Source: Dokdonia pacifica
GTDB lineage: Bacteria; Bacteroidota; Bacteroidia; Flavobacteriales; Flavobacteriaceae
NCBI RefSeq assembly: GCF_900188275.1
Contig: NZ_FZNY01000001.1
Span: 310,001 to 374,000 of the forward strand
Length of the DNA stretch: 64,000 nt
Direction of reading: 5' to 3'
Part shown: in pieces, positions 3 to 62,121 of the stretch
Layout: every line of letters begins with the position of its first letter
Position numbering within the stretch: the first letter of the stretch is position 1
Position numbers and translations under genes: made by a program
The notes under the pieces: model-generated
Databases searched by the model: none
What the model saw: the letters and a program-made list of their open reading frames with translations, nothing else
What the model was told of the DNA's origin: nothing

Positions 3-920
3 ATTACAGGTGCTGCAGTAGTTTTTAGAATTCTGATTCTTATTGCAGACATGGGTATCATCATACTAGGGAAAAAACTCCTTCAACGTATGGGATTACC
101 CATTCATGCTATCTTTTGGTATGCGCTCAACCCATTTATTATCATAGAAATGACGGGCAATTTACACTTTGAATCGGTGATGCTCTTTTTTGTGATATGG
201 TCTCTCTATCTTTTGCATAAAGGAAAATGGATAGGAAGTGCTGTTTTATTAGCGCTTTCTATTTCTATTAAATTATTACCCTTATTATTCTTACCGTTAT
301 TATTTCAGTTTTTGCTTTCGCGAAAAGCTATACAAGGAAAAAACCTATTTCTATCATGGAAGGGTTGGAAACAAGCTGCGTTGTATTACTTAGTTGTTTT
401 AGGAACCGTAGCACTTACCTTTGCGCCTTTCCTTACGGGTGAGTTTGCCGAAAATTTCGGGGCTTCTATCGCACTTTGGTTTAAGAAATTTGAATTTAAT
501 GCAAGTATCTACTATGTAATACGCTGGATAGGTTTTAAAGTAGTGGGATGGAATATTATAGGAGATGTTGGTCCTTTGCTACCTCGCTATGTTGTTGGAC
601 TATTACTACTATTTGCATTCTTTAGAAAAAACAGAACCCTTAAAGCCACCATTACCGCCATACTCCTAGGGATTTCATTTTACTTTTTACTTTCTACCAC
701 AGTACATCCTTGGTATGTAGCAACGCCACTTATTTTATGTGTATTTACAAAGTATCGTTTCCCATTGGTATGGAGCTTTACGATTATACTCAGTTATTCG
801 GCATATGGCCCAGATGGTTTTAAAGAAAATTTATGGCTTGTCGCTACCGAATACCTGCTTGTATTAGGTGTATTCCTTTGGGAGGTTTTTAGAAAAAGTA
901 AGAAGCCTATTGTTGTATAA
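3..920 (+). CDS. Integral membrane glycosyltransferase-like protein (5' partial)
   Basis: The reading frame is open from base 3 to the ATG at 51, so the gene probably begins before the window and the first in-frame ATG is not necessarily its start. The visible 306 residues hold about eight hydrophobic segments with short polar loops and end in a basic tail. The pattern resembles GT-C fold polyprenyl-phosphate-sugar transferases of the GT87/DUF2029 or mannosyltransferase type, for example a conserved-looking HPWY motif in a late loop. I see no diagnostic catalytic motif because the N-terminal part, which normally carries the acidic catalytic residues, is missing. It converges with the operon that follows. 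Family-level function is inferred; substrate unknown. Confidence 0.6.
   Translation: MTGAAVVFRILILIADMGIIILGKKLLQRMGLPIHAIFWYALNPFIIIEMTGNLHFESVMLFFVIWSLYLLHKGKWIGSAVLLALSISIKLLPLLFLPLLFQFLLSRKAIQGKNLFLSWKGWKQAALYYLVVLGTVALTFAPFLTGEFAENFGASIALWFKKFEFNASIYYVIRWIGFKVVGWNIIGDVGPLLPRYVVGLLLLFAFFRKNRTLKATITAILLGISFYFLLSTTVHPWYVATPLILCVFTKYRFPLVWSFTIILSYSAYGPDGFKENLWLVATEYLLVLGVFLWEVFRKSKKPIVV
314..325. repeat. Dispersed palindrome GCTTTCGCGAAA
   Basis: Inside the first glycosyltransferase gene, read as LSRKA. Confidence 0.85.
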
Positions 921-940
921 CAGCTTTATGAAATATAAAA

Positions 941-1828
941 TCACTCATTCAAGCTATCAATGATTTGTTTTAATGCTCTTTTTGCTTCCTGCATTACGGG
1001 AAGGAATGGCCAAATATGAGGCATCTTTTCTCCTTCAATAATAGCTACCTGAGTATTCGTTTTTATTAATTTTTCAATAGTTAGTTTTTGATCCGGATAG
1101 GTAATATCATAGGTTGCCGCATATAAAATAGTATGAGGGAAATTTTCAAAGCTTCCATACAATGGGGAAATCATTGTGTTTTTTAGATCTTTATCTTCAG
1201 CACACATTTGCTTTGCGCTAAGTACCCCTTTTTTAGATAACATAGGATCACGAGGATCTATTTTTTCTATATCAGGATTTGATAAGGTAGCGTCCATTAC
1301 TGGAGAGACTAGAATAATTTTAGCGGGTAATTCCATGTCTTTTTGAACTAACCTTTGAACTAAAGCTGTAATCAATGTACCTCCTACAGAGTCCCCAATG
1401 CAAGAAATCTGATGTGCACTGTATGTTTTTAGAGCTATATTATATACCTCGTCTATATTTTGAGATATCAGTGAAATCTTATGTTCAGGTGCTTTTGGAT
1501 AATCACACATCCAGACAGTATGATTTGTTTGCTTAACGATAGTCTTTATAGTATCCCAATGATGTTTTGCTGGACCAGATATAAAAGCACCTCCGTGAAT
1601 AAATAATACTAATTTACCTGAAGCCTTGTTTGACGTAATCTCTGTAATCGAAGTATTTAGAATAGTAAATGTACGTGTTTGATGCTTCTTAAAGAACGTT
1701 CCTTTTACTTCACGTACATCTTCTTTCCGTATTTTTTTATAATCTATTGGATCTTGACTAAAGTCTTTTTTTAATCCTTTTAGTTTAATAATAAATAACG
1801 TAATATAATAGGTGAAGCTTTGTTTCAT
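941..1828 (-). CDS. Alpha/beta hydrolase, HSL-type esterase/lipase
   Basis: This 295-residue protein has the hormone-sensitive-lipase signature HGGAF at residues 78-82 (oxyanion hole), the nucleophile elbow GDSVGG at 145-150 with Ser147, a likely catalytic Asp241 in YAATYD and His271 in PHIWPF. The family hydrolyses short acyl esters; the true substrate is unknown. It has no clear cleavable signal peptide, although the N-terminus is hydrophobic for about 15 residues. Its ATG overlaps the stop codon of the preceding small membrane protein by one base, so it is the last gene of the minus-strand glycosyltransferase operon. A role in removing or adding an acyl group on the product made by that operon is only a guess from context. 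Confidence 0.8.
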   Translation of the reverse strand: MKQSFTYYITLFIIKLKGLKKDFSQDPIDYKKIRKEDVREVKGTFFKKHQTRTFTILNTSITEITSNKASGKLVLFIHGGAFISGPAKHHWDTIKTIVKQTNHTVWMCDYPKAPEHKISLISQNIDEVYNIALKTYSAHQISCIGDSVGGTLITALVQRLVQKDMELPAKIILVSPVMDATLSNPDIEKIDPRDPMLSKKGVLSAKQMCAEDKDLKNTMISPLYGSFENFPHTILYAATYDITYPDQKLTIEKLIKTNTQVAIIEGEKMPHIWPFLPVMQEAKRALKQIIDSLNE

Positions 1829-2208
1829 TATTTATTATTTTTAATAGCTACTTTAAGTTCGAATAGGGAAAGGATGACTATAAGTAATACCTCAACACAA
1901 ATATACACCCATCCTAAAATTGTGACCGTATCTATATGATACATTGCACATCCTATAGACATACAACAATACAGTAAATTAAGTATTGCAATTATTTTTA
2001 ACAGCTTACTCAAGTTAGCATTCTTTTTTTGAAAACAATAGAAATCAAAAATGGCAAAAAACACAGGAAATATGGCAAGTACATATAAGGTAGCAGAAGG
2101 GATTCCAAAAGCGCTTTCAAATTGAACAAGCACTATTCCTAGCATAAAAGCTGACAATATTGCTCCCAATCCATCTATTAAAAAAAGTCTCCTTGGGCTA
2201 AATATCAT
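1828..2208 (-). CDS. Small four-helix membrane protein
   Basis: The 126 residues form four hydrophobic segments (about 8-32, 40-58, 68-90 and 93-118) separated by short charged loops, with a polar KNNK end. I do not recognise the family. It lies 12 bases after the GT39 gene and overlaps the hydrolase start by one base, so it is almost certainly co-transcribed and translationally coupled. Members of similar flavobacterial operons are often annotated only as hypothetical membrane proteins. Confidence 0.7.
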   Translation of the reverse strand: MIFSPRRLFLIDGLGAILSAFMLGIVLVQFESAFGIPSATLYVLAIFPVFFAIFDFYCFQKKNANLSKLLKIIAILNLLYCCMSIGCAMYHIDTVTILGWVYICVEVLLIVILSLFELKVAIKNNK

Positions 2209-2220
2209 ACAAGTTTTTTA

Positions 2221-3858
2221 TTACTCTCTCTTAATTAATTTATAGACATACCCTACCTTTCGGTTTTTGTAATCTAATCCTTCATAATTCAAGTCAATAA
2301 GATAAGAGCCTGCGTTTTTAAAGGTATCAATGTATGGGTCATTTTCAATCAACTCCCCACACCATTCACAGTCAATAATATAAATAACATCATTTCCTTT
2401 TAATTCTTTTAAGCTATTAATAATAGGAATTTTAGCTCCTCTAGCCCAGATCATTTCTGGCGATGTTTTTTTATAAGCGTAAATAGGTGTTGATTTATCA
2501 ATATTCAATCCTTTAAAAAAACCATCAAATTCAAAATGATTTTTGCTAGCTATCTTATTTTCAGCATGTAAAGTTCCTAAACTATATATAAGTGCTATAA
2601 GTCCTATAGTGAGTAGCACAAAAACCTGTTCAATTGATTTTTGATACAACTTTTTTAGAAGTAAGATTCCTATTACACTTAGTGAGCCGTAAAAAACATA
2701 GGTTATTATGGGAACTTCAATAGGTTTTTCTGTAAATAAAAGATATAGTCCAAAAATAGAAGCACCAATAAAAACAATACCAATTATCCCGAAAGAGAAA
2801 TACACAGGAATGGTCTCTCGTTTATCTTTTAACTCCTTAAAGCGACGTATGAGATACTCAATATAAAAGCCTGTATTCATTGCCAATGGAATTAAAACAG
2901 GCATTAGGTATCTTGACTTTTTCTCTGGAATAACAGACAGTAATACAACGGCAACTAGCGTCCACAACAATGTAAACTGATATACTTTCAAGTTGGAAAC
3001 ACGTGTCTTTAAATAGGGATATAACAACCCTATAAAAGCAGGAACTGTCCAAAGACCACTTTGCACAAAGAAACTCCAATAGTAATAAAAAGGTCGCACA
3101 TTATAGCTGGTCCAATTTCCTGTTTCTTTAGATGTAATGGCTGCAAATGTTTCTGGGTCTGCATATCGTACATAGAGATACCAACTAAACCCAACAGCTA
3201 ATCCAACCAATAGAAGACCTACAAACAACAACCATTTTTTAGCAGTCGTAGATGTACGAAATATAATACCATAAGAAATCAAAAATGGTAATAATAATGC
3301 ATACGCAGACACAGGGCCTTTGCTTAATACAGAGCATCCTATTCCTACAATGGCAAGTAATCCGTATGCCCAAGAAATCGTGTCTTTTCTAAAAATCTGA
3401 ACAATACTATAGATCCCAACGAGCATGAATGCATGTGCATAAATGTCCCAAGGAGCTTCAAAGACAATAAGAATAACATAAAGAGAGGTAACTCCTATCA
3501 GACCATTATACAAACTATGAGATTTATCAAGGGTAAGCTTTCGCGAAAGCGTATACAACATACTCCCTAATAACATCACCATGAGTACTGCTGGTAATCG
3601 CAAAGCCCATGTACTCTTTATGCCAAATAACATTGCTGAAAGCGCTGTTAACCATGTAGGAAGTGGTGGTTTTTGATACCTAGCCTCACCATTCATGGTG
3701 GTAAGAATCCAGTTGTCATCAGTGAGCATTTCACGAGCTGTAATAAAATTACGTGCTTCCATGATAGTCACTTCCATCACATCTAAAAATGGCAGCAGCA
3801 ATAAAGCAACCACAGTAATGATGGTGAGTATCGGTCGTTTTTTTACTAAATCAATCAC
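2221..3858 (-). CDS. GT39/ArnT-like membrane glycosyltransferase
   Basis: The 545-residue protein resembles the ArnT/PMT superfamily, whose members move a sugar from a polyprenyl phosphate to a lipid or protein outside the inner membrane. The first periplasmic loop has EARNFITAREM at residues 34-44 followed by NGEARYQKPPLP, matching the ArnT pattern (acidic residue, ARxM, KPPL). The usual Asp-Glu pair reads Met-Glu here, so the first acidic residue may be displaced. About eleven membrane helices follow, then a soluble C-terminal domain. The start overlaps the end of the LAB_N gene by eight bases. A CTTTCGCGAAAG palindrome is read through near residue 105 as LSRK. Acceptor and donor are unknown. 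Confidence 0.82.
   Translation of the reverse strand: MIDLVKKRPILTIITVVALLLLPFLDVMEVTIMEARNFITAREMLTDDNWILTTMNGEARYQKPPLPTWLTALSAMLFGIKSTWALRLPAVLMVMLLGSMLYTLSRKLTLDKSHSLYNGLIGVTSLYVILIVFEAPWDIYAHAFMLVGIYSIVQIFRKDTISWAYGLLAIVGIGCSVLSKGPVSAYALLLPFLISYGIIFRTSTTAKKWLLFVGLLLVGLAVGFSWYLYVRYADPETFAAITSKETGNWTSYNVRPFYYYWSFFVQSGLWTVPAFIGLLYPYLKTRVSNLKVYQFTLLWTLVAVVLLSVIPEKKSRYLMPVLIPLAMNTGFYIEYLIRRFKELKDKRETIPVYFSFGIIGIVFIGASIFGLYLLFTEKPIEVPIITYVFYGSLSVIGILLLKKLYQKSIEQVFVLLTIGLIALIYSLGTLHAENKIASKNHFEFDGFFKGLNIDKSTPIYAYKKTSPEMIWARGAKIPIINSLKELKGNDVIYIIDCEWCGELIENDPYIDTFKNAGSYLIDLNYEGLDYKNRKVGYVYKLIKRE
3537..3550. repeat. Dispersed palindrome GCTTTCGCGAAAGC
   Basis: Inside the GT39 gene, read as LSRK. 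Confidence 0.9.
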
Positions 3859-7554: not shown

Positions 7555-7600
7555 TAAAAAGTCCCTTCTCCTTCTGGGAGAATGTTAGGATGAGGGTGAC
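7555..7600. repeat. Dispersed CCTTCTCC...GGAGAA repeat
   Basis: This copy of a CCTTCTCCxTxGGGAGAA-TGTTAGGATGAGGG repeat is also seen at about 50171-50201 and 51969-52001. Its right part encodes the last residues and stop codon of the nitrilase gene. Confidence 0.6.
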
Positions 7601-8553
7601 AACTTCACCGTACTCTGACGTTCCCTATTCACATGTAATTGCGTCACATCTGGACGCGAGTAATGTCCTACAGCATCAAAATTTTGTCGCTCTTCATACA
7701 CGCGGTTAAAATCAATAGTATGATATATATTCCCTTCTGTAGTAATATCTGGATGTACTATAAATTCTCCATCAGGCCCAGCAATACAAGAACCTCCATT
7801 AGACAAGAGTTCTGGAGCGTTTTTAACTAACTCCTCATAATGTGGTGTATCTTTTGGAAAGTCTGATATATGCATTCTACTAGATACAGACACCACAAAA
7901 GAACGTGATTCTCTAGCTATAAATCGGGTAATATCTTTGGTATTGTAATCACTTCCTGGCCACACAGCAATGTGTAAATTCTCCCCTTGACCATATAAAG
8001 CTGCTCGTGGTAAAGGCATCCAGTTTTCCCAACAATTTAATCCGCCTACTGTAAATTGTTTTAAAGGATGTACTTGTAACCCATGGCCATCTCCGGGTGA
8101 CCACGTTAAGCGTTCATCATAGGTAGGTTGTAATTTACGATGTACTGACTGTATCTCTCCTTCTTGATTTATATAAACTAAAGAAGCATATAAACTATGC
8201 CCCCCTCTATCTTGTGGACGTTCTATGATCCCTAGGTAAATTGCTATGTTATGCTTTCGCGAAAGCGTACATACCTCTTCTAAATCTCCTGCATCAATAT
8301 CAACACAATTACGAGCGTAATGTGCATGCAATTCTTTCACCACATCTTTATTCCACTCGGCTCCACCAGTGAGTGCTAACCAGTAAGGATAGCCAGGCAA
8401 CACCCCTTCTCCAAATACAATAAGCTCTGCACCTTCCTGAGCAGCTTCAATTATTGCTTTTTTAATTTTCTCTAAGGTAGCTTGTTTATTTAGCCATACA
8501 GGAGCAATTTGTGCCATGGCTATTTTAAGATGATTTTCCGGTATTGCTGTCAT
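7585..8553 (-). CDS. Nitrilase-family carbon-nitrogen hydrolase
   Basis: The 322-residue protein carries the complete nitrilase-superfamily triad: Glu49 in FGEG, Lys140 in HRKLQPTYDE and Cys174 in NCWENWMP. The NCWENxMPL context and overall length match branch 1, the true nitrilases and cyanide hydratases, which turn nitriles into carboxylic acids and ammonia. Substrate is not predictable. It lies 9 bases downstream of the UbiA gene on the same strand. A GCTTTCGCGAAAGC palindrome is read as TLSRK at residues 96-100. The C-terminal LSPSS and stop codon come from a dispersed repeat, so the original end may have been replaced. Confidence 0.9.
   Translation of the reverse strand: MTAIPENHLKIAMAQIAPVWLNKQATLEKIKKAIIEAAQEGAELIVFGEGVLPGYPYWLALTGGAEWNKDVVKELHAHYARNCVDIDAGDLEEVCTLSRKHNIAIYLGIIERPQDRGGHSLYASLVYINQEGEIQSVHRKLQPTYDERLTWSPGDGHGLQVHPLKQFTVGGLNCWENWMPLPRAALYGQGENLHIAVWPGSDYNTKDITRFIARESRSFVVSVSSRMHISDFPKDTPHYEELVKNAPELLSNGGSCIAGPDGEFIVHPDITTEGNIYHTIDFNRVYEERQNFDAVGHYSRPDVTQLHVNRERQSTVKLSPSS
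8253..8266. repeat. Dispersed palindrome GCTTTCGCGAAAGC
   Basis: Inside the nitrilase gene, read as TLSRK. Confidence 0.9.
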
Positions 8554-8562: not shown

Positions 8563-9465
8563 TTATATATGATCTAATAAAACACGTATGTCTAGCAGTA
8601 AAATACTAAACACACCTGCTACAATTATAAATTTCAAAATAGTATGAAGTACAAGGTAATGTAGCTTTTCTTTTGAACGCCATAAAACTAGTAGGAAAAG
8701 AAGCAATAAAATTACACTTGCATAAAAATAAAAGTGCATATATCCCATTGCAAAATCATTTACTAAAAAATAAGTAGGAATAATGGTAAGCCCTGCTAAA
8801 GCGGTTAACAACCATTTTGAAGTCTTTGTCCCATACACTATTGGGATTGTTTTATAGTTTTGAGCTAGATCTCCTTTTATATTTTCTAAGTCTTTTACTA
8901 ACTCACGCATCACAATAATTAAAAATAAAAAGCTCGCATGAATAAAAATGACGGTATCTAAGTTTTTATAATACACAAAAACCGCAAAAAAGGGAGTTAT
9001 TGCAAGTATTGCCGCTGTTAGGTTTCCAATAAATGAAATCTTTTTAAGCTTATGGGAGTACAACCAGATACCAAAAATATAAATCGCAAAAAACACCACA
9101 GCTCTAAACGAAACATAACTTGCTGCAATAACCGCTAAAAAATTAAGCACAAAGTAAAAAGAGAGCTTGGTATTTTGACTTACCAGTCGATCTAACATCG
9201 TTTTGCGAGGTCTATTAATGAGGTCTTTTTCTGAATCGTAAAAATTATTAATGATATAACCACCCGCTATAGTAGCCGCAGAAGCAATAACAAGCATAAA
9301 AAGATTAAGATCTAGTACAACTTCTCTTAAGGTCTTGCCTGATGACATAATAAATATAGAGGCAAGGTATTGTGCAAGTACAATCACTAGAATATTATAT
9401 CCTCTCACTACAGAAAACAAACTGAACATCTTAAGAAGTGTTCGTTTATTTTTTCGCGAAAGCAT
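8563..9465 (-). CDS. UbiA-family prenyltransferase
   Basis: The 300-residue membrane protein has the two Asp-rich motifs of UbiA enzymes: NNFYDSEKDLINRP at about 73-86 and DLENIKGD at 192-199, with eight or nine membrane helices. In Bacteroidota this position beside mevalonate-pathway genes is usually a geranylgeranylglycerol-phosphate or similar isoprenoid transferase; that assignment is inferred from context. The annotated first residues MLSRK come from a TTTCGCGAAAGC palindrome that overlaps the ATG at 9465. Met13 at 9429, just before FSLFSVVRGYN, is a plausible alternative start. The gene follows the mevalonate kinase by 26 bases. Confidence 0.85.
   Translation of the reverse strand: MLSRKNKRTLLKMFSLFSVVRGYNILVIVLAQYLASIFIMSSGKTLREVVLDLNLFMLVIASAATIAGGYIINNFYDSEKDLINRPRKTMLDRLVSQNTKLSFYFVLNFLAVIAASYVSFRAVVFFAIYIFGIWLYSHKLKKISFIGNLTAAILAITPFFAVFVYYKNLDTVIFIHASFLFLIIVMRELVKDLENIKGDLAQNYKTIPIVYGTKTSKWLLTALAGLTIIPTYFLVNDFAMGYMHFYFYASVILLLLFLLVLWRSKEKLHYLVLHTILKFIIVAGVFSILLLDIRVLLDHI
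9452..9463. repeat. Dispersed palindrome TTTCGCGAAAGC
   Basis: Overlaps the annotated ATG of the UbiA gene and supplies MLSRK. Confidence 0.85.
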
Positions 9466-10459: not shown

Positions 10460-11536
10460 TTACAATTTTTTTGCTCCATTTCCCACGCAATCATTAATAT
10501 AGTGGTTGTTTTGGCAAAAACTTGACAATTCATTTTCTATAAAAAGGTGTATTTCTTTGGTTTCTTTTTTAGGATACAACACATGTACATTGGCACCTGC
10601 ATCTAGTGTAAAGCATACTTTCGAACCTGTTTTTTCTCTATACGCCCATATGCGATTTATGATCTCTAGAGTATTAGGTTTCATCAAAATAAAATAAGGA
10701 TGGCTTGTCATCATCATCGCATGTAAGGTGAGTGCTTCACTCTCTACAATGGCTATAAAAGCATCCAAATCTCCAGATTGCAACACCGTTTTTAATTGAA
10801 CTAAATTACCGTAAGCCTGATCAAATCTCGCTTTCGCGAAAGCGTGCCCATGCATTAACCCATGTCCAACAGTACTACTCACTTGTTTCTCTCCCTTATC
10901 TACTAATAAGATTGAATCCTGAAAATCTTGAAAATTAGCATGTACTTCATAAGGGTATGCTGTTCCATATAAATCACTACTATTTGAGATATCCTGATGT
11001 GCTCCCCAAACAATAAGAGGTCCTTCCAAACTTCGGCAAGCACTTCCAGATCCTAGACGAGATAAGAAAGAGGCTTTTTGCATAAAATAATCATCTGTCA
11101 TTTCAGGAGAAAGTTGTCGTTCTATATCCATCACACATAAAGACAATGCGCTCATCCCTGATGCCGAAGAAGCAATTCCTGAACTATGCGGAAAAGAATT
11201 TGATGTTTCTATCTTAAAACGATACTTCGTAATAAATGGAACATACTTTTCTATGCGTTTAAAAAAACTGGCTATCTTAGGTTCAAACCCTTCCTCTTTA
11301 TGTCCATCAAGATATACTTCAAAATCAAATCCATCAGATTCTTTTGGCGTATAATGTAATGTTGTAGCTGTATGACAATTACTTAACGTAAAGCTTATAC
11401 TAGCATTTTGAGGCAATTGCTCTCCATGTTTTCCCCAATACTTCACTAAAGCGATATTACTAGGAGATTGCCAAGACACAGATCCAGCTGAAAGTATAGC
11501 TGTATTTGAATTTAAAACAAAAGAATCTTCAGACAT
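10460..11536 (-). CDS. mvaD: Diphosphomevalonate decarboxylase
   Basis: I place the start at the ATG at 11536, giving 358 residues beginning MSEDSFVL; the frame can be extended to 11659, but that extra 41-residue segment is unlike the family. Diagnostic features are NIALVKYWGK near residues 28-37, the ATP-binding GIASSASGMSAL, the SGSACRS loop and a C-terminal DAGANVH containing the expected catalytic Asp. The enzyme uses ATP to decarboxylate mevalonate diphosphate to isopentenyl diphosphate. It is the first gene of the mvaD-mevalonate kinase-UbiA run, with a 29-base gap to the kinase. A full CGCTTTCGCGAAAGCG palindrome is read as AFAKA. Confidence 0.92.
   Translation of the reverse strand: MSEDSFVLNSNTAILSAGSVSWQSPSNIALVKYWGKHGEQLPQNASISFTLSNCHTATTLHYTPKESDGFDFEVYLDGHKEEGFEPKIASFFKRIEKYVPFITKYRFKIETSNSFPHSSGIASSASGMSALSLCVMDIERQLSPEMTDDYFMQKASFLSRLGSGSACRSLEGPLIVWGAHQDISNSSDLYGTAYPYEVHANFQDFQDSILLVDKGEKQVSSTVGHGLMHGHAFAKARFDQAYGNLVQLKTVLQSGDLDAFIAIVESEALTLHAMMMTSHPYFILMKPNTLEIINRIWAYREKTGSKVCFTLDAGANVHVLYPKKETKEIHLFIENELSSFCQNNHYINDCVGNGAKKL
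10829..10844. repeat. Dispersed palindrome CGCTTTCGCGAAAGCG
   Basis: Inside mvaD, read as HAFAKAR. Confidence 0.9.
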
Positions 11537-11802
11537 ATAAGAATTATAAGTTTTGGCAAAGATAACTGTTGTCTTTCTATTATTTGTATGGAAGTTTTTA
11601 ATCCAGATTATGCAATAGAACTTTGTGATGAGAATTGAAACAGCAATAAAATATGACATATTCTTAGTTTTAGCATAGCATCGCTATGATTAAACTCAAA
11701 AATGTAGCGCAGCGATATATTTTGCAGCAGGTTCAAAACGGAATAGATTTTCTATTACATAATCTGGATTTAAGAGTTTTTTCATAAATTGGTAGTACCA
11801 TT

Positions 11803-12288: not shown

Positions 12289-12353
12289 TACGCTTTCGCG
12301 AAAGCGAACTTGTGAGATTCACGACTAAAAGGAGAGCGAAGCGTTAAAGCGTA
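12289..12353. repeat. Short palindrome-ended composite element
   Basis: The element starts TACGCTTTCGCGAAAGCG and ends AAAGCGTA, so its outer 8 bp are inverted copies. The interior (GATTCACGACTAAAAGGAGAGCG...) recurs in longer form at 56119-56240 and 63188-63362. It separates convergent tspO and the flavoprotein gene. Confidence 0.6.
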
Positions 12354-12363
12354 TAATAGCTAA

Positions 12364-13608
12364 TTATTTATTGGCAATAGCTGCTGCTATCATATGACCA
12401 CCCGTCCATGCATTTTGAAAATTAAACCCTCCTGTAATAGCATCTATATTGAGCACTTCTCCTGCAAAGTATAAATTCTCATGAATTTTACTTTCAAAGG
12501 TTTTAAAATTAACTTCTTTGAGATTGATACCACCAGCTGTTACAAATTCTTCTTTAAAAGTGCTTTTTCCTTTTATTTCATACAAACCACCGGTAAGCTC
12601 TTTACTTAAAGACTGTAATTGATTTTTTGTAAGATTCGCCCATTTCTCACCCTCTTTAATCCCTGAAGCAGTAAGTAAACTTTGCCAAAGTCTTTTAGGT
12701 AAATCAAATTGTGTATATGTATAAGGAGACTGTTTAGCTAATGTATGTTTATAGTTCATTAATACATCCATTACATCTTCTTGAGATTCATATACTAACC
12801 AATTAACTTTAATCGTAAAGTGATAATTCATCGCAGCTAGGTCTCTAGCTCCCCAAGCAGAAAGTTTTAAAACGCCTGGACCACTCAATCCCCAATGTGT
12901 AATAAGCAGAGGTCCTTCTGACTGTAGTTTTGTGCCTAGGATCTCTACAGATGCTTCTGATGATAGTCCCATCAAATCTTTAATACGTATATCCTTACTA
13001 TTAAATGTAAATAAAGAAGGAACTGCTTGGGTTATCGTATGCCCCAAGCTTTCTAGTTGTTTCCACATTTTAGGATTACTTCCTGTTGTGACAATTAAAG
13101 TGTCACATGTAAAATCATGTTGTGTGGTTGCTAAACTCCAATGGTTTTCAAGTTTTTCAATTTTTTGAACAGCATGATTTTTATAAATCTCAACACCCAG
13201 TTGTTTTGCTTCCTTTAAAAAGCACTCTATAATAGTAGCAGAAGAATCAGATACGGGAAACATACGACCATCATCTTCTATTTTAAGTGCCACTCCACGA
13301 TCTTCAAACCATGCAATGGTATCACCTGTCATAAATGTATGAAAAGGCCCTAAAAGTTCTTTTTCACCTCTAGGATAGTTTTTTGATAATTCTTTAGGAA
13401 CAAATTCTGCATGGGTTACATTACACCTACCGCCACCAGAAATACGAACTTTAGTTAAAACTTCTTTTCCTCTTTCTAAAATTAAAATAGAAGCATCTGG
13501 AACGTTAGAAGCAATATTTATAGCAGTAAAAAATCCTGCCGCACCACCTCCTATAATAATAACATCTTTATGTAGTAATCTAGTCTCCAAAAAATACTTT
13601 TTGCACAA
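12364..13608 (-). CDS. BaiN/HI0933-like FAD-dependent oxidoreductase
   Basis: The 414-residue protein has an N-terminal dinucleotide-binding motif VIIIGGGAAG (about 16-25), the family motif RISGGGRCNVTHA, and near the C-terminus ITGGFNFQNAWTGG preceded by a FAGEVL segment. These mark the HI0933/YhiN/BaiN flavoprotein family, soluble two-domain oxidoreductases whose physiological substrates are mostly unknown. The start at 13608 adds about 12 residues before the hydrophobic beta strand; a later in-frame start is possible. The gene is single, with convergent tspO downstream and the divergent susC promoter region upstream. Confidence 0.85.
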   Translation of the reverse strand: MCKKYFLETRLLHKDVIIIGGGAAGFFTAINIASNVPDASILILERGKEVLTKVRISGGGRCNVTHAEFVPKELSKNYPRGEKELLGPFHTFMTGDTIAWFEDRGVALKIEDDGRMFPVSDSSATIIECFLKEAKQLGVEIYKNHAVQKIEKLENHWSLATTQHDFTCDTLIVTTGSNPKMWKQLESLGHTITQAVPSLFTFNSKDIRIKDLMGLSSEASVEILGTKLQSEGPLLITHWGLSGPGVLKLSAWGARDLAAMNYHFTIKVNWLVYESQEDVMDVLMNYKHTLAKQSPYTYTQFDLPKRLWQSLLTASGIKEGEKWANLTKNQLQSLSKELTGGLYEIKGKSTFKEEFVTAGGINLKEVNFKTFESKIHENLYFAGEVLNIDAITGGFNFQNAWTGGHMIAAAIANK

Positions 13609-13821
13609 ATATACTCTTCAAATATTGAAGACAAGATCAAATTATTTTTTTAAAAAAATCAAATTTACTTTAACGAAAATTATGTTACTACAATTTCTCT
13701 TAATTCAGGTATAAAATTATAACTCATTATGTATTTGACAGTATGAGCTATTTCTTTTTATGAACTTGCCAAAAAATTGATCAAAATTTTCACATAAATC
13801 CATACAAAAAGGCTTTTAAAC

Positions 13822-13837
13822 ACGAAAACGTTTTCGT
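13822..13837. promoter_or_regulatory. LacI-family operator, perfect 16-bp palindrome
   Basis: ACGAAAACGTTTTCGT is a perfect palindrome with the central CG of LacI/GalR-family operators. It lies about 14 bp upstream of the -7 element of susC, where bound protein would overlap the -33 region. A related sequence, ACGAAAACGTTGTAA, lies at 45256-45270 beside the LacI regulator gene, which suggests that this regulator may act here; regulators outside the window are possible. Confidence 0.65.
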
Positions 13838-13850
13838 AACTTTAACGATG

Positions 13851-13858
13851 TATTTTTG
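13851..13858 (+). promoter_or_regulatory. Bacteroidota -7 promoter element for susC
   Basis: TATTTTTG fits the TAnnTTTG -7 consensus of the Bacteroidota primary sigma factor. The -33 region would fall within the operator palindrome, giving a 5' leader of about 90 bases before the ATG at 13955. Confidence 0.5.
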
Positions 13859-13954
13859 TTGCGTTAACGTAAATTTTACATAAATTAGGCGCTTATAAAG
13901 TGATTAAACGCTAAAATTTTTAAACTAAGCAAACTAATTTTAAACAAGAATCTT

Positions 13955-16900
13955 ATGAAGAAAGTATTACTTAAAAGTATGCTGCTGTTTGTCGCGGTTC
14001 TCTTTGCGGGAATTTCAACTGCCCAGACAGTTTCTGGAACAGTGACAGAGGAGAATGGTCCTTTGCCGGGTGCAAACGTAATTGTAAAAGGCACCCAGAA
14101 TGGTGCTACTACCGACTTTGACGGTAACTACACTCTCAATAATGTAGCAAGTGATGCTATACTCGTATTTAGTTATGTAGGATATTCTACGCAAGAAATT
14201 GCAGTAGATGGAAGAAGCACTGTAAATGCATCATTATCTTTAGATAATGCGCTTGATGAAGTGGTATTAATTGGATATGGAACAACAACTATAAAAGATG
14301 CTACAGGTTCTGTTGCAGCGGTTACTTCCGAAGAATTTAACCAAGGGGTTATCCAATCTCCTGAGCAATTAATTCAAGGTAAAACTGCCGGTGTTCAAAT
14401 TTCTGAAGCGTCTGGTGAGCCAGGAGGTAGTGTTGTAGTGCGTATTAGAGGTTCGAACTCTATTCGTTCTGGAAACAATCCTTTATTTGTTGTTGATGGT
14501 GTTCCATTAACTTCAGCAGGAGCTCCAACAGCAAACACTCCAGGTATTGGAGGTGGTAACTCAAGAAACCCACTTAGTTTCTTAAACCCTAATGATATTG
14601 AAAGCATCTCTATTCTTAAAGATGCATCAGCTACAGCGATCTATGGATCTCGTGGTGCGAATGGTGTAATCATCATTCAAACTAAAGGAGGTAGAGGCGC
14701 TAGTAAAGGTAGATGGGAAATAAACACATCTGTAAGTGCATCAAACGCTGCCGATGAGTATGACCTTTTAAATAGAGAGCAATTCCTTTCTGCAGTAGAG
14801 TCTATAGGTAATGACCCTGTAGCTGCTGATTTTGGAGGAGCAGATACAGATTGGCAAGATTTCCTTACGCGTACTGCTTATTCTAGAAATACAGATTTAA
14901 GTTATTCTAAAAGCTACCAAGGAGGAAATGTAAGAGCATCTTTTGGATATAGTAATACAAATGGTGTTATTGAAACACAATCACAAGAGCGTATTGCTGG
15001 TCGTTTAAATGCTCAACATAAATTCTTTGATGATAAGTTAACATTAGCCTTCCAAGGATCTATGTCTAGAGTAAATGATAATCTAGCACCTATTTCAGGT
15101 AATGCTGGTTCAACAGGAGATTTAATTGGTGCTTCTATATCAGGAAATCCAACAATTCCTGCAGATGCTGATTTTAATCCAGGAAATAATGTATTAAACC
15201 CTGCTAGTTTATTAGCTACGTTTAGAGGTCTTTCTAATACAGACAGAATCTTATTAAACTTATCTGCTGATTATAAAATCACTGATGAGTTTAGTGCTAA
15301 AGTTACTGTTGGTTATGATCAACTTGAATCTACTACAGTATCTGCTTTCTCAGCAGATGTACTTGGATTAAACGGAGTGTCTGGTATTGGTAGAGGTAAC
15401 TATAATACATTTGAACAAGACAACTCACTTTTGGAAGCTACACTTTCTTATAATAAAGAATTCGAAAATTCTAATTTAAGCGTAGTTGGAGGTTATTCAT
15501 ACCAAGAATTTGATAGAAGTGGTGTATTTGCAAACGGAGCTGGATTCTCAACAAATAATTTAGGAACTATCTTAAATCAATTAGAAAGCACGTATAATGC
15601 TGTAAGTGGAAGTATCCAAGGATCTTTCCAAAACTTCGGATATGGTGAAAATGGTTCTTTTGTAAACCGTTTATTCCCTGAAATTAATGACACTGATATT
15701 TTACCTTCAGGATTTAACAGAAGCATTAGAGCTTTTGTTGGAGATACATTTGATAATGTAGACGAGCTTCAATCATTCTTTGTAAGAGCTAACTATACAA
15801 TTGCAGATAAATATTTATTTACTGGAACATTCAGAGCAGATGGTTCTTCAACGTTTGGATCTGAAAACCAATATGGTTACTTCCCTTCTGGAGCATTTGC
15901 ATGGCAAATACACGAAGAAGATTTTGTAGGAGATAATGTATCTACTTTAAAGTTACGTTTAGGAGCTGGTATCGTGGGTAGTCAAGAAGGACTAGGACAC
16001 GCACAGTTTATTAGAAGAGAGCGTTTCGGTGGAGCAGGTATCACAAATGATCTTACTGTAAACCGTCCAGGAACAGTAGTAATTGGTAATACGAACCCAG
16101 ATCTTAAATGGGAGGAAACATTAGACTTTAACGTAGGTATTGATTTTGGATTTAATAACGATCGTTTCAATGGTAGCTTTAACGTATACCGTAAAGAAAC
16201 TTCTGATTTATTATTAAACAGTGCTCTTGCAGCTCCATCATCGGCTAATGTTCCTACTATATTCAGAAACCTTGATGATGGTATTGTAGTGAATCAAGGG
16301 GTTGAACTTGCATTAAATTATGATTTTATAGATACTGACGATTGGGGATTCTCTGCAGCATTCAACATTGCATATAACCAAAATGAAGTACAAGATACTG
16401 ATCAAGTTATTGATACAGGAGCTATTAATGGTAATGGTTTAACAGGAGCGTTTGCACAACGTCTTCAAGCTGGTGAGCCATTATTCTCTTTCTTCCTTGC
16501 TGAATTTACAGGATTTGATGACAACGGTTTCCCAACATATAGAGATGTAAACGGAGATGGTGTTGGTGATCCAGATTCAGATAAGACGTTTGTAGGAGAA
16601 AATGCAGTTCCAGAAATTACTTCTGGTTTATCATTAAACTTCCGTTACAAGAGATTTGATCTTGCAACATATTTCACAGGACAATTCGGATTCTCAGTAT
16701 ATAATGCAACAGATAACGCATTCTTTACTGCAGGTGGATTAGCAATTAGTAAAAACGTAACTCAAGATGTTCTTACTAGTGGTGAAGATGGTGCTGCTAC
16801 AACAGCAGTATCAACAAGATTCTTAGAGTCAGGAGACTTTGTACGTTTACAAACATTATCATTAGGATATAACTTCCCTGTAAGCGGTGAAGGATTCTTT

Positions 16901-17086
16901 GATTCTTTAAGACTTTCTTTAACAGGACAAAACTTATTCTTAATCACTGACTATAGTGGTTTAGATCCAGAAGTTTCGGTAAGCACTGGACAGATTAATG
17001 CATCAAATATCCCAACAGCGGGTATTGATTATGCAGCTGTTCCTAGAGCTAGAACATTTACATTAGGTGTTAATGCACGATTTTAA
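13955..17086 (+). CDS. SusC/RagA-type TonB-dependent outer membrane transporter
   Basis: The 1043-residue protein has a signal peptide ending near residue 23 (GISTAQ), a carboxypeptidase-regulatory-like domain (about 25-105, with VSGTVTEENGPLPGANV), a TonB-dependent plug (about 115-230, with DATGSVAAVTSEEF and RIRGSNSIRSGNNPLFVVDGVP split by a variable loop) and a 22-strand barrel domain ending in LGVNARF. SusC proteins import oligosaccharides across the outer membrane with TonB/ExbBD energy. SusD follows after 18 bases. Codon use is clean and the CGCGAAA palindrome is absent from susC and susD. The upstream LacI-type operator points to sugar-responsive control. Substrate cannot be read directly. 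Confidence 0.97.
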   Translation: MKKVLLKSMLLFVAVLFAGISTAQTVSGTVTEENGPLPGANVIVKGTQNGATTDFDGNYTLNNVASDAILVFSYVGYSTQEIAVDGRSTVNASLSLDNALDEVVLIGYGTTTIKDATGSVAAVTSEEFNQGVIQSPEQLIQGKTAGVQISEASGEPGGSVVVRIRGSNSIRSGNNPLFVVDGVPLTSAGAPTANTPGIGGGNSRNPLSFLNPNDIESISILKDASATAIYGSRGANGVIIIQTKGGRGASKGRWEINTSVSASNAADEYDLLNREQFLSAVESIGNDPVAADFGGADTDWQDFLTRTAYSRNTDLSYSKSYQGGNVRASFGYSNTNGVIETQSQERIAGRLNAQHKFFDDKLTLAFQGSMSRVNDNLAPISGNAGSTGDLIGASISGNPTIPADADFNPGNNVLNPASLLATFRGLSNTDRILLNLSADYKITDEFSAKVTVGYDQLESTTVSAFSADVLGLNGVSGIGRGNYNTFEQDNSLLEATLSYNKEFENSNLSVVGGYSYQEFDRSGVFANGAGFSTNNLGTILNQLESTYNAVSGSIQGSFQNFGYGENGSFVNRLFPEINDTDILPSGFNRSIRAFVGDTFDNVDELQSFFVRANYTIADKYLFTGTFRADGSSTFGSENQYGYFPSGAFAWQIHEEDFVGDNVSTLKLRLGAGIVGSQEGLGHAQFIRRERFGGAGITNDLTVNRPGTVVIGNTNPDLKWEETLDFNVGIDFGFNNDRFNGSFNVYRKETSDLLLNSALAAPSSANVPTIFRNLDDGIVVNQGVELALNYDFIDTDDWGFSAAFNIAYNQNEVQDTDQVIDTGAINGNGLTGAFAQRLQAGEPLFSFFLAEFTGFDDNGFPTYRDVNGDGVGDPDSDKTFVGENAVPEITSGLSLNFRYKRFDLATYFTGQFGFSVYNATDNAFFTAGGLAISKNVTQDVLTSGEDGAATTAVSTRFLESGDFVRLQTLSLGYNFPVSGEGFFDSLRLSLTGQNLFLITDYSGLDPEVSVSTGQINASNIPTAGIDYAAVPRARTFTLGVNARF

Positions 17087-17104
17087 TTAAAAAAAACAGA
17101 AACT

Positions 17105-18727: not shown

Positions 18728-18749
18728 ACCTAAATTTTGAATTAAGCTT

Positions 18750-18778
18750 AAAAAGAGGGTTGTTTCAACCCTCTTTTT
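18750..18778 (+). terminator. Hairpin terminator after susD
   Basis: AAAAAGAGGGTTG (18750-18762) and CAACCCTCTTTTT (18766-18778) form a 13-bp stem with a 3-base loop and a T-rich end. It should attenuate transcription into the three lipoprotein genes. It also overlaps the longest reading frame of the next gene, which argues for a later start there. Confidence 0.8.
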
Positions 18779-18819
18779 TATTCACTTTTCTTTTAGTAAA
18801 ATTGCATTTTAGATTTACA

Positions 18820-22119: not shown

Positions 22120-22125
22120 TAGCAT

Positions 22126-37524: not shown

Positions 37525-37537
37525 CGCTTTCGCGAAA
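37525..37537. repeat. Dispersed palindrome CGCTTTCGCGAAA
   Basis: Intergenic copy 14 bases after the PSD-family stop codon, shortened on its right side. Confidence 0.85.
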
Positions 37538-45347: not shown

Positions 45348-45363
45348 CGCTTTCGCGAAAGCG
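45348..45363. repeat. Dispersed palindrome CGCTTTCGCGAAAGCG
   Basis: Full 16-bp copy upstream of the GH32 start. It is distinct from the nearby LacI-type operator. Confidence 0.9.
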
Positions 45364-45414
45364 AATTAACAAAAATTACAATTGGTATTATTATATTTAT
45401 GCAAACTAAAAACC

Positions 45415-49725: not shown

Positions 49726-50276
49726 TCGGTAGCTTTTAGTCGGTAGACGGTAGTTGTTAAATCTTATCTTTAGGGGTGTTGATAGTTCATGTCACCCTGA
49801 GCCTGTCGAAGGGCTTAGTGATAGCTTTTAGCTATTAGTCGGTAGTGCTTAGCTGTTCGCTTGTAGACGGTAGTTCTTAGATAAACTATAATATCACCCT
49901 GAGCCTGTCGAAGGACTTAGTGATAGCCTTCAGTTGTTAGTGCTTAACTAATAGTCAGTAGTTTTGGTATCATTTTCGCTTTCGCGAAAAGACACACCCC
50001 TTACTCCCCTCTTACTAGAGGGGAAACTCATACTCTTATTTTTAGTTATAAATATATTAGTCTTCCCTCCTAGAAAGGAGGGCTAGGGAGGTGTGAAAAA
50101 AAACAGAGTAACACTCTATTTTAGAGTAGTACTCTATTTTGCTTGTCAAAAACTTTTATCGCATATAGAGTTCCTTCTCCCTTGGGGAGAAGGTTAGGAC
50201 GGTAGGAAATAAACCACACAATCACAACACTTTATAAATTAATTCCTGTATTTTTATAGAGTTAACAGTGGTATAT
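49726..50276. repeat. Repeat island 1 (no gene)
   Basis: This 551-base gap holds no gene. It contains AGTCGGTAGACGGTAGT repeats (49736 and 49863), two CACCCTGAGCCTGTCGAAGG units (about 49793 and 49894), a palindrome (49977), nested hairpins CCCCTC/GAGGGG (50006-50023) and CCCTCCT/AGGAGGG (50065-50082), and a CCTTCTCCCTTGGGGAGAAGG unit split near 50171. Several of the same units recur at 51495-52018. Confidence 0.75.
49977..49989. repeat. Dispersed palindrome CGCTTTCGCGAAA
   Basis: Intergenic, in repeat island 1. Confidence 0.8.
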
Positions 50277-51604: not shown

Positions 51605-51616
51605 TTTTCGCGAAAA
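51605..51616. repeat. Dispersed palindrome TTTTCGCGAAAA
   Basis: Intergenic, in repeat island 2. Confidence 0.8.
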
Positions 51617-51889: not shown

Positions 51890-51903
51890 TTTTCGCGAAA
51901 GCG
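51890..51903. repeat. Dispersed palindrome TTTTCGCGAAAGCG
   Basis: Intergenic, in repeat island 2. Confidence 0.8.
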
Positions 51904-58434: not shown

Positions 58435-59424
58435 ATGAAAAAAATAGCAATCAACGGAATGGGACGCATAGGACGTGCTGCTCTCAAAGTAATTTTAGAC
58501 ACCCCAGAACTCGATGTAGTAGCTGTAAATGACCTTGTACCAGTAGATAATATTGCGTACTTACTTAAATATGATTCTGTATACGGTATTTATGAAAAAG
58601 AAGTTACTCATGATGAGAATCACCTGATTATAGATGGCAAGAAAATCAACTATTATTCAAATCGTAATCCGGAAGAACTTCCTTGGAAAGAGGATAATAT
58701 CGAGATTGTGATAGAAAGCACAGGTTTTTTTACCAATAGTGAAGATGCTGCAAAACACATCACTGCAGGTGCAAAAACAGTTGTTATTTCGGCGCCTACT
58801 AAAAGTGAAGATACGCCTACAGTTGTGCATGGTGTAAACTCAGAAGAGGGAAAGACTTCTATCTTCTCTTGTGCGAGTTGTACTACTAACAATATAAGTC
58901 CCGTCGTAGAGGTATTAGGAAGACGTATTGGGATTAAAAAAGCCATTATGACGACTGTACACGCTTATACGGCTTCGCAAAATATGGTAGATTCCGTTTC
59001 TAAAAAGAACTACCGTATGGGACGTGCAGGCGCAGCAAATATTGTCCCTACCTCAACGGGTGCAGCTATTGCAACCACAAAAGCATTACCACAATACAAA
59101 GGAAAATTTGATGGGGTAGCTTTACGAGTTCCAATTCCAGTTGGCTCTATTTCTGATATGACGTTTGTAACAGAGAAGCCAGTAACTGTAGAAGAAATAA
59201 ATACAATACTCCAAGAAGAAGCACAAACGGCACGTTATACAAATGTATTAGCCACTACGCATGAACCTATTGTTTCTTCAGATATTGTAAAAAGCCCATA
59301 TGCATCTACCGTAGATTTAAGCATGACACGTGTGGTAGATGGCGATTTATTAAAAGTGATGACGTGGTATGATAATGAGTGGGGATTCACAAATCAAATG
59401 ATACGTCAGATTTTAGAATTATAA
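58435..59424 (+). CDS. gap: Glyceraldehyde-3-phosphate dehydrogenase
   Basis: The 329-residue enzyme has INGMGRIGRAAL at the start, VAVNDL with the NAD-selecting Asp33, catalytic Cys149 in SCASCTTNN and His176 in TVHAYTAS, and RVPIPVGSISDMTFV. It oxidises glyceraldehyde 3-phosphate in glycolysis or runs in reverse. The VGSISD segment differs from the common VSVVD form. Whether this is the main or an extra paralogue cannot be told from the window. A link to TetR and NTF2 genes is unusual. Confidence 0.95.
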   Translation: MKKIAINGMGRIGRAALKVILDTPELDVVAVNDLVPVDNIAYLLKYDSVYGIYEKEVTHDENHLIIDGKKINYYSNRNPEELPWKEDNIEIVIESTGFFTNSEDAAKHITAGAKTVVISAPTKSEDTPTVVHGVNSEEGKTSIFSCASCTTNNISPVVEVLGRRIGIKKAIMTTVHAYTASQNMVDSVSKKNYRMGRAGAANIVPTSTGAAIATTKALPQYKGKFDGVALRVPIPVGSISDMTFVTEKPVTVEEINTILQEEAQTARYTNVLATTHEPIVSSDIVKSPYASTVDLSMTRVVDGDLLKVMTWYDNEWGFTNQMIRQILEL

Positions 59425-59452
59425 TATGAAGTTTCTGTATATGCTTTCGCGA

Positions 59453-59466
59453 AAGCGTATACAAAA
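59453..59466. repeat. Dispersed palindrome GCTTTCGCGAAAGC
   Basis: Located 29 bases after gap; its surroundings (TAT...GTATA) extend the dyad. Confidence 0.85.
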
Positions 59467-59484
59467 ATTTTAAAACCATAAGAC

Positions 59485-60971: not shown

Positions 60972-60981
60972 ATTTAGGGAT

Positions 60982-62070
60982 ATGGAACCATTCTACATTC
61001 ATCCAGACATTACACAAGCCGAAACCTTACCTGCCTCTTTTTATCGTAGTCAAGATGTTTTTGATGCGATAAAAGAACGCGTTTTTGAAACCACTTGGCA
61101 ATGGATTGGTGATGCAAATTCCTGCATCCCATTAACAGAAAGTGTATTTCCCTTTGTCTTGTTAGACAATTACCTTACAGAGCCTATGATGGTGGTAAGA
61201 GACAAAGAAAATAAGATTACGTGTCTCAGTAATGTATGTACACATCGTGGAAATATTGTGGCGCATCATCCTGGAAAAATAAAGAATTTCACCTGTATGT
61301 ATCACGGAAGGCGTTTTGACTTGCAAGGCACTTTTAAATCGATGCCTGAATTTGAAGAAGCAAAAGATTTTCCAAGACCCTGTGACAGCTTGCACAAATT
61401 TGAATTACGGGAATGGGGCTCACATTTATTTGTTGGACTCAAGCCTGTATTTGATTTTTCTGAGGTGATCAATGTGATGAAAGAACGTGTTGGTTTTTTA
61501 CCACTCAACGAATTCAAACTAGATACTAGTCTCAACAAAGACTATATCATTAATTGTCATTGGGCATTGTACTGTGATAATTACCTAGAAGGATTTCACA
61601 TCCCATTTGTACATGCAGATTTAAACGATGCATTAGATTATGGGCAATATAAAACAGAGATTTATGAGCATGTAAACCTACAAATTGGATATACCGATGG
61701 AGGCGACGAAGTTTTTGAACTCCCAGAGGGTCATCCCGATCAAGGAAAACATGTAGCTGCCTATTATTACTGGGTATTTCCTAATATGATGTTTAACTTT
61801 TACCCTTGGGGATTATCCATAAATATTGTAAAACCCTTTAGTCTCAATAAAACAAAGGTCTCCTTTATCACGTATGTATATGATGAAACAAAACTACATA
61901 CGGGTGCTGGCGCTTTACTAGACAAAGTAGAACGCGAAGATGAGTTTGTGGTAGAAGGCGTTCATAAAGGACTACAATCTAAATTCTATAAAGCAGGAAG
62001 ATTCTCTCCTACGCGTGAAAAGGGCGTTCACCATTTCCATAGTTTATTAGCAAAGTATCTTAACTCCTAA
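60982..62070 (+). CDS. Rieske non-haem iron oxygenase (alpha subunit type)
   Basis: The 362-residue protein has a Rieske [2Fe-2S] motif (Cys86, His88, Cys105, His108 in CTHRG and CMYHG) and the mononuclear iron motif NYLEGFHIPFVH (about 200-211, His206 and His211). It resembles choline, carnitine or glycine-betaine-type ring-hydroxylating oxygenases. No reductase gene is in the window. It may act on the substrate imported by the APC permease, as the genes are 11 bases apart. Confidence 0.88.
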   Translation: MEPFYIHPDITQAETLPASFYRSQDVFDAIKERVFETTWQWIGDANSCIPLTESVFPFVLLDNYLTEPMMVVRDKENKITCLSNVCTHRGNIVAHHPGKIKNFTCMYHGRRFDLQGTFKSMPEFEEAKDFPRPCDSLHKFELREWGSHLFVGLKPVFDFSEVINVMKERVGFLPLNEFKLDTSLNKDYIINCHWALYCDNYLEGFHIPFVHADLNDALDYGQYKTEIYEHVNLQIGYTDGGDEVFELPEGHPDQGKHVAAYYYWVFPNMMFNFYPWGLSINIVKPFSLNKTKVSFITYVYDETKLHTGAGALLDKVEREDEFVVEGVHKGLQSKFYKAGRFSPTREKGVHHFHSLLAKYLNS

Positions 62071-62097
62071 AAGCGTATTCTAGTACTTATGTTGCTG

Positions 62098-62121
62098 TAT
62101 ATGCTTTCGCGAAAGCATATA
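62098..62121. repeat. Longest dispersed palindrome (24 bp)
   Basis: A perfect 24-bp palindrome: TATATGCTTTCG plus its inverted copy. It lies 20 bases upstream of the GH5-like ATG. Confidence 0.9.

Follow-up and report, generated by a model that had tools for sequence, protein, structure and literature searches.

The palindromic core and its sites in the window

The DNA analysed here, referred to as the window, is a stretch of 64,000 nucleotides from Dokdonia pacifica (NCBI RefSeq assembly GCF_900188275.1, contig NZ_FZNY01000001.1, positions 310,001 to 374,000), and our subject is a short palindrome that recurs along it. The 10-bp core is TTTCGCGAAA, and the extended site, GC-TTTCGCGAAA-GC, comprises 14 bp. 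As the data below show, this palindrome is highly iterated, genome-wide and restricted to a clade. A preliminary description of the window had reported at least 21 exact copies in both genes and gaps. All 21 are present, and sites internal to open reading frames (ORFs) as well as intergenic sites occur among them, although the positions first given lie 0 to 8 bp from the exact core starts, an offset that may in part reflect the listing of extended-motif starts. The sites are as follows.

314 to 325: core (316 to 325) with GC on the left, in ORF 51-920
3537 to 3550: 14-bp site GC-core-GC (core start 3539), in the PMT_2 glycosyltransferase ORF 2221-3858; also in loci L005 and L012
8253 to 8266: 14-bp site (core start 8255), in the CN_hydrolase ORF 7585-8553; core also in L005 and L006, altered in L012
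9452 to 9463: core (start 9452) with GC on the right, at the start of the UbiA ORF 8563-9465; core kept in 4 of 7 aligned Dokdonia loci
10829 to 10844: 16-bp site CGC-core-GCG (core start 10832), in the mevalonate diphosphate decarboxylase ORF 10460-11659
12291 to 12306: 16-bp site (core start 12294), intergenic, with convergent ORFs on either side
21678 to 21693: 16-bp site (core start 21681), in the FG-GAP/ASPIC ORF 18760-22119
24414 to 24429: 16-bp site (core start 24417), in the FG-GAP/ASPIC ORF 22126-25494
26304 to 26317: 14-bp site (core start 26306), in the FG-GAP/ASPIC ORF 25445-28732
32724 to 32735: core (start 32726) with GC on the left, intergenic
37526 to 37537: core (start 37528) with GC on the left, intergenic, 17 bp beyond the 3' end of ORF 36234-37511
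41666 to 41681: 16-bp site (core start 41669), in the GH65 ORF 40907-43252
42550 to 42563: 14-bp site (core start 42552), in the same GH65 ORF
45348 to 45363: 16-bp site (core start 45351), intergenic, upstream of the GH32 ORF 45382-46974
45530 to 45543: 14-bp site (core start 45532), in the GH32 ORF
46443 to 46456: 14-bp site (core start 46445), in the GH32 ORF
49978 to 49989: core (start 49980) with GC on the left, intergenic
51606 to 51615: core alone (start 51606), intergenic
51891 to 51902: core (start 51891) with GC on the right, intergenic
59443 to 59456: 14-bp site (core start 59445), intergenic, the core 21 bp beyond the GAPDH ORF 58435-59424
62098 to 62121: 24-bp perfect palindrome around the core (start 62105), intergenic, with ORFs 60982-62070 and 62142-63158 on either side

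In 100 dinucleotide-preserving shuffles of the window the core appeared 0.03 times on average and at most once, and the zero-order expectation is 0.07. The 24-bp perfect palindrome is likewise as described. The statement that most copies extend to CGCTTTCGCGAAAGCG proved wrong, as GC stands on both sides in 14 of the 21 and CGC...GCG in only 6.

Abundance, anatomy and spacing of the site

Across the whole 5.52-Mb genome TTTCGCGAAA occurs 1,195 times and the reversed word, used as a control, 15 times, so that the window is not a local cluster. The Markov-type check gives 92 copies in 454 kb of the window contig, with about 0.4 expected under word models of length 2 to 4; a length-5 model expects 2.2 in the same 454 kb, but it already includes parts of the motif. 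All 18 genomes of the genus that were searched, the window genome included, hold 481 to 1,195 copies, and of 41 genomes outside the genus in the same search one holds 595 and the remaining 40 hold 0 to 12. Thirteen of the genus genomes are at least 90% complete: nine of 3.3 to 5.5 Mb carry 1,012 to 1,195 copies, and the other four carry 832 (2.9 Mb), 821 (3.0 Mb), 700 (3.1 Mb) and 663 (4.3 Mb), which indicates that copies increase less than genome size.

Searches by name and at wider taxonomic range give the same picture, with high counts in Dokdonia, the Nonlabens group and one genome of genus g210, and near-absence elsewhere. The nine genomes named Dokdonia, which judged by equal counts apparently overlap the set of 18, all hold 481 to 1,094 copies. 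The Nonlabens group (nine so named and strain BBFL7, which is placed among Nonlabens in the decarboxylase tree) holds 319 to 730 in ten of ten. Fifteen further named genomes contain 0 to 21, the highest being two Prolixibacter with 15 to 18 copies of their own control. Among 397 genomes of the family, the 12-mer TTTCGCGAAAGC is abundant in six, namely two of the window's genus, three of genus g11 (585 to 683) and the g210 genome, G230 (476 on one strand and 482 on the other), and none of the remaining 391 exceeds 23. The 14-mer has any copy in 22 of 395 genomes of the phylum, with 903 in the window genome and 6 in the next highest. The complete chromosome of G230, with its roughly 480 copies, also carries relatively more one-mismatch variants and shows a weak, non-significant thinning of sites away from parB.

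We also looked for other "dialect" 10-mers outside Dokdonia and Nonlabens, and none was comparably enriched in decarboxylase-relative loci of at least 11 kb. The best such word reached a log10 p of -7.9 (one Croceivirga locus), whereas in loci with the motif its own best word scored roughly -10 to -20, and one other word reached -9.5 in a single Dokdonia locus; because the scan requires four copies, it missed the motif in the shorter loci L007, L013, L014 and L051. A literature search found no description of the TTTCGCGAAA motif, although the exact 10-mer stands in ten papers with titles on other subjects.

The anatomy of the site was taken from 327 distinct Dokdonia sites. GC adjoins the core on each side in 92-93%, followed by C/G in 76% and, at the fifth position outward, T/A in 75%, so that the palindrome often extends to TACGC...GCGTA. 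Farther out, positions -6 to -20 on the 5' side of both strands are rich in G/T and poor in C, a bias that stops sharply at -21, and core and flanks together make a footprint of about 50 bp. The flanks keep nearly the usual G+C content and differ in strand GC skew (+0.5 to +0.6 at -20 to -11), equally so in genes (204 sites) and gaps (133) and on either side of the gene direction. The 58 Nonlabens sites display the same pattern, on the whole more strongly. Covariation between the arms is absent in G440 and mild at positions 4-6 in two genomes (z up to 3.6), a pattern that fits the binding consensus of a symmetric protein better than a hairpin. Where a core with supporting flanks has one mismatch, it is usually the innermost T or A that is missed (20 of 23 in G016, 13 of 16 in G440 and 27 of 39 in G230), and such variants may be tolerated in these three genomes.

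The sites are frequent in gaps, with 35 of 92, 37 of 92 and 41 of 105 lying there by a simple ORF caller (7 to 9 expected), often just beyond gene ends; the remaining 60% or so lie within genes, in all three frames. Density in the stretches read is one per 2.4 to 5.7 kb and median spacing 2.6 to 5.2 kb. Spacing is far more even than chance in six of seven genomes: in G436, G440, G443, G457, G016 and G230 the coefficient of variation (CV) of the gaps is 0.37 to 0.68, a value matched by at most 1 in 2,000 random placements in each. Control words of like abundance were never as even in G440 (0 of 960), G436 (0 of 1,305) or G443 (0 of 1,790). Two complete chromosomes sampled every 160 kb gave indices of dispersion of 0.37 (G016) and 0.76 (G230). 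The window contig is the seventh and fails on CV; gaps below 1 kb are nonetheless too few there, 9 with 17 expected (23 of 2,000 simulations as few). Two of its stretches lack the motif. One, of 33 kb (57.3-90.3 kb), carries a type IV secretion system (T4SS) coupling-type protein, and the other, from 385.3 kb to at least 454 kb, where the stretch read ends, carries a CusA-type pump, a multicopper oxidase and a P-type ATPase. We infer that both are foreign islands.

Conservation of sites and their presence in mobile DNA

Individual sites are conserved far beyond their surroundings. Between the window genome and its relative G436, 50 of 61 aligned sites are exact at 84.6% identity, compared with 23% of control 10-mers; for G440 the figures are 30 of 39 at 72.7% (control 6.6%), and between G436 and G440 they are 27 of 38 at 72.5% (control 5.8%). 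These counts are lower bounds, since a few "lost" sites are in fact unchanged but shifted in the alignment. Conservation is confined to the 14 bp, and identity outside them drops to background. Density is 0.27 per kb where at least two of the three relatives align and 0.15 elsewhere (p = 0.011), though the relatives were partly read, so that unaligned does not equal newly acquired. The wider comparison between Dokdonia and Nonlabens offers just four alignable sites of the window genome, of which two are kept, too few to use. Where intergenic sites are lost, G436 and G443 sometimes carry a repeat-like stretch (TACTTCGAC...GCTCAG...) in place of the motif, perhaps a second intergenic repeat family.

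The Dokdonia lineage G443 (the genome of locus L012; 663 copies in 4.3 Mb) keeps 30 of 54 sites of the window genome at 75.7% identity (control 10.5%), and in the reverse direction 30 of 40 of its own sites are found in the window genome. These G443 counts, like those from the Dokdonia-Nonlabens comparison, are again lower bounds. Of 20 lost sites listed, about 10 are one to three substitutions away from the core. From these alignments the sites of G443 seem to be decaying, as if a reader had been lost or had become weaker. This genome also lacks the match to a D12 methyltransferase of 330-350 aa that is found in the other five panel Dokdonia, as do most panel Nonlabens.

The origin of one site can be followed in the mevalonate diphosphate decarboxylase gene, for which 52 of 72 relative loci were aligned together with the window. 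Read in the frame CAC GCT TTC GCG AAA, the core occurs in the window gene, in those of 8 of 9 named Dokdonia and in 9 of 12 genes of the Nonlabens group; all 31 other genes lack it. Where the motif-bearing genes read HA, 29 of these 31 read HP, and no gap is involved. As the alignment indicates, the site was made by substitutions that altered the protein, and it recurs in both genera. The nearest relative of the window gene is that of an uncultured Dokdonia (92%), and the window gene groups with named Dokdonia in the tree. The tree did not resolve a sister relation of Dokdonia and Nonlabens, so that one origin, two origins or transfer are all possible.

The exact 14-mer was also found in many viral contigs among the matches listed, some of them G+C-rich and probably matched by chance; for this reason the 18-mer was used too, and it matched 19 stretches. 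Seventeen IMG/VR contigs, in sets of 10 and 7 with some overlap in content, were counted whole, and 14 of them hold 2 to 8 copies in 12 to 40 kb, mostly kilobases apart. Genes in the viral loci include integrase (L191, L209), tape measure, head protease (L208) and Mu-like transposition proteins (L200), and three of the contigs found through the motif that carry integrase or Mu-like transposase genes hold 4 to 5 spaced copies. Judged by such genes, the motif-bearing viral contigs appear temperate wherever lifestyle can be told. The Nonlabens phage P12024S, whose record has no annotated integrase, contains 0 copies in 35.7 kb.

Motif copies also occur on islands in otherwise motif-poor genomes. 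A metal-efflux island (L077, L079, L080 and L082) has two copies 933 bp apart in four such Flavobacteriaceae genera; L077 is annotated with a CusA-type pump, an outer-membrane efflux protein, a multicopper oxidase and P-type ATPases, the other three are 78-95% alike, and a fifth genome (G200) has the same 933-bp spacing. A conjugative element in a motif-poor genome (L084, with a DUF5712 protein and a T4SS coupling protein) lies in a stretch that has copies 0.8 to 16 kb apart, and a stretch 91% alike is found in another genome (L087). The islands in motif-poor genera may derive from a motif-bearing lineage.

A candidate self-recognition site and its alternatives

We tentatively propose that Dokdonia, Nonlabens and one further flavobacterial genus tag their resident DNA with a double-stranded palindromic site of about 50 bp that is read by a machine as "self", either for uptake or for a bidirectional Chi-like stop; the chance that this is right is, in our estimate, a little short of even. 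The tagged DNA would be the chromosome, temperate phages and perhaps conjugative islands. Within this proposal, the function we favor, with somewhat more reserve, is that of a lineage-specific DNA uptake sequence, by analogy with the uptake signal sequence (USS) of Haemophilus and the DNA uptake sequence (DUS) of Neisseria. A symmetric, presumably dimeric, surface or periplasmic DNA receptor would bind the double-stranded 14-bp core and its strand-skewed flanks, and DNA bearing the site would be imported via the ComEC route and then recombined, so that alleles with the site are copied over alleles without it. Under this drive, to which selection for safe recombination perhaps contributes, sites would arise by point substitution, stay exact and settle at a spacing of roughly one per imported fragment. 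They would accumulate in resident DNA and in temperate prophages, whereas DNA that has just arrived would show no such build-up.

The clade restriction, evenness, exact conservation, rewritten protein and spaced phage copies bring the palindrome close to what is reported for DUS. DUS spacing matches conversion tracts, 71% of sites are exactly conserved over six Neisseria genomes, and DUS are not present in recently acquired genes (PMC2397512). In Pasteurellaceae, USS are reported to build up in temperate phages but not in large phages that are likely lytic (PMC6776037). Like our site, DUS and USS number in the hundreds to thousands of copies, are restricted to a clade, occur about once per kb or every few kb in both genes and gaps, and are conserved much more strongly than the DNA around them; the known class is further marked by its place in the core genome, sparsity in recent DNA, accumulation in temperate phages and scarcity in likely lytic ones (PMC2397512, PMC6776037). 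The Dokdonia site differs in that it is palindromic with symmetric strand-skewed flanks, lies in Bacteroidota, is sparser (one per 2.4-5.7 kb) and has an uptake role that is putative. Because its consensus is palindromic, unlike the oriented USS and DUS, we do not file it as a member of that class, although the non-palindromic, oriented form is a trait of the known cases and stands outside the functional definition. The palindrome with its skewed flanks is new relative to USS and DUS, and a symmetric site would imply another kind of receptor.

Several points weigh against an uptake function. USS and DUS are not known to be palindromic, and Chi-like or architecture sites could likewise be conserved and spaced. 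On the window contig the gap CV of 0.96 is indistinguishable from chance, with 821 of 2,000 simulated placements just as even, and 319 of 1,494 control words are as even, the 33-kb empty stretch weighing heavily. Around the sites identity barely varies (83-85%), and a recombination footprint is not clearly visible. All 24 panel genomes have an open-frame ComEC match (the panel comprises 15 motif-rich genomes, G281 and G461 being one genome, and 9 motif-poor ones), and since all 9 motif-poor genomes have it, ComEC does not discriminate. Three of the 10 IMG/VR contigs of the first set hold a single copy in 36-60 kb. The viral contigs carry no host assignment, and as they were found via the motif, it is their copy number and spacing, and not the presence of the motif, that count as independent evidence. 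P12024S is the sole motif-free phage examined, with a lifestyle not stated in its record. A literature search found no paper joining Dokdonia, DNA uptake and competence.

If self-recognition is the true function, we know of no earlier sequence-specific system of this kind in Bacteroidota and of no other that is palindromic, and the tag would be powerful enough to have changed the amino acids of a core enzyme. PMC7811141 describes uptake sequences in Pasteurellaceae and Neisseriaceae; a strongly maintained site of like behavior in marine Flavobacteriaceae would point to a renewed origin of such sequences. Riemerella columbina, placed under Flavobacteriaceae in PMC7965970, prefers its own DNA in transformation; the relevant part of that paper identifies no motif and lists only A/T-rich words as candidates. 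The 14-bp site, with about 1,000 genomic positions, offers a probe for fishing out the reading protein, and G443 a possible natural case of loss. The motif may further mark host history in phages and islands of Dokdonia- and Nonlabens-type bacteria.

Among the alternatives, a bidirectional Chi-like site is unlikely in our view. A helicase-nuclease of the RecBCD or AddAB type would read the site on either strand, stop degrading and start RecA loading, so that site-bearing DNA would undergo repair and all other DNA degradation; like Chi, the site could mark self DNA. RecA prefers G/T-rich DNA, and the 5' 15 nt of each strand, G/T-rich and C-poor with a GC skew of +0.5 to +0.6, would suit its loading. 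Temperate phage contigs with several spaced copies, and the one Nonlabens phage with none, speak for it too, and the half-site seems to resemble the Chi sequences of Firmicute AddAB. Known Chi sites, however, are short, oriented, non-palindromic and read as single strands, whereas the Dokdonia site is palindromic, and a palindrome of 14-20 bp points to double-strand recognition by a dimer. We also know of no Chi-type site conserved site by site at such a level.

An architecture or nucleoid-protein site, bound about every 3 kb by a dimeric protein that folds or protects the chromosome, is similarly doubtful. The palindromic consensus, little arm covariation, footprint of some 50 bp, even spacing and strong conservation all suit it. 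The comparison with origin and terminus proposed in the preliminary description, made over 20 stretches per chromosome, revealed little: in G230 the sites tend to thin out farther from parB (Spearman -0.34, p = 0.15; the best axis was matched by 38 of 300 permutations), which is weak and non-significant but does not speak against a positional role, whereas the complete chromosome of G016, of the same genus as the window, has no trend with distance from parB (Spearman -0.10, p = 0.69) or on any alternative axis (equalled in strength by 272 of 300 permutations). Terminus exclusion is absent in G016 and weak and non-significant in G230. The window contig moreover does without the motif over stretches of 33 kb and at least 68 kb. 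Noc binding sites and parS are perfect palindromes with TTTC...GAAA half-sites, the spacing of which presumably differs from that of the Dokdonia site. In contrast to those sites of the ParB-CTPase family, ours has about 1,000 copies, no terminus exclusion in G016 and no extra ParB paralogue that tracks it; just one ParB_N match occurs in 13 of the 15 motif-rich genomes and in 7 of the 9 motif-poor ones.

The preliminary description had likened the density to HIP1 of cyanobacteria or to uptake or architecture motifs. Uptake fits best, given the even spacing, site conservation and phage pattern, and the HIP1 route through an orphan methyltransferase found no support in the three families searched. 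HIP1 (GCGATCGC) is, like our site, a short palindrome iterated genome-wide in genes and gaps and restricted to a clade, and it is very improbable that the Dokdonia site is a comparable by-product, left by an orphan DNA methyltransferase acting with biased mismatch repair or by restriction protection. Its high density and a D12 match in all six panel Dokdonia would be in keeping with such an origin. Among the 15 motif-rich panel genomes, however, the C5 family is absent from 10, N6_N4 gives no hit above cut-off in 12 and D12 no match in 7, and Nonlabens xylanidelens (G461, 700 copies) is without all three; no C5, N6_N4 or D12 family is thus common to the 15, other families (Type I, Eco57I-type) not having been searched. 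The methyltransferase, ParB_N and ComEC distributions single out none of these proteins as the reader. The shorter words within the core are also not enriched outside it, as 92 of 116 copies of TCGCGA in the 454 kb (22-27 expected under word models of length 2 to 4) and 92 of 95 of TTCGCGAA (about 3 expected) lie inside the 10-mer. The Dokdonia site is longer than HIP1 (14-20 bp rather than 8), has another sequence, and shares none of the three methyltransferase families across its carriers. HIP1 is put at once per kb (PMC4390886), and our site is some 2 to 6 times less dense. TCGCGA is mentioned as a methylated word of a viral group in a passage of PMC9516812.

Finally, a dispersed mobile repeat of the repetitive extragenic palindromic (REP) or miniature inverted-repeat transposable element (MITE) type, or a terminator hairpin, would account for the excess of sites in gaps just beyond gene ends, but we regard it as the least credible explanation and the hairpin or REP element as largely refuted, since genes contain about 60% of the sites, in every frame, comparison of the decarboxylase site with other genera shows substitution and no indel, arm covariation is weak or absent, and the average flanks have no T-run.

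Two features of the window remain to be described. The preliminary description had noted the absence of the core around susC and susD (ORFs 13955-18727), and 9.4 kb (12294 to 21681) are indeed core-free, but this gap is unexceptional on the contig, where others measure 9.7, 9.8, 11.7, 13.2 and 33 kb. Directly behind the SusC/SusD pair, at 18760-28732, three successive giant FG-GAP/ASPIC-UnbV proteins (1,095-1,122 aa) are encoded.

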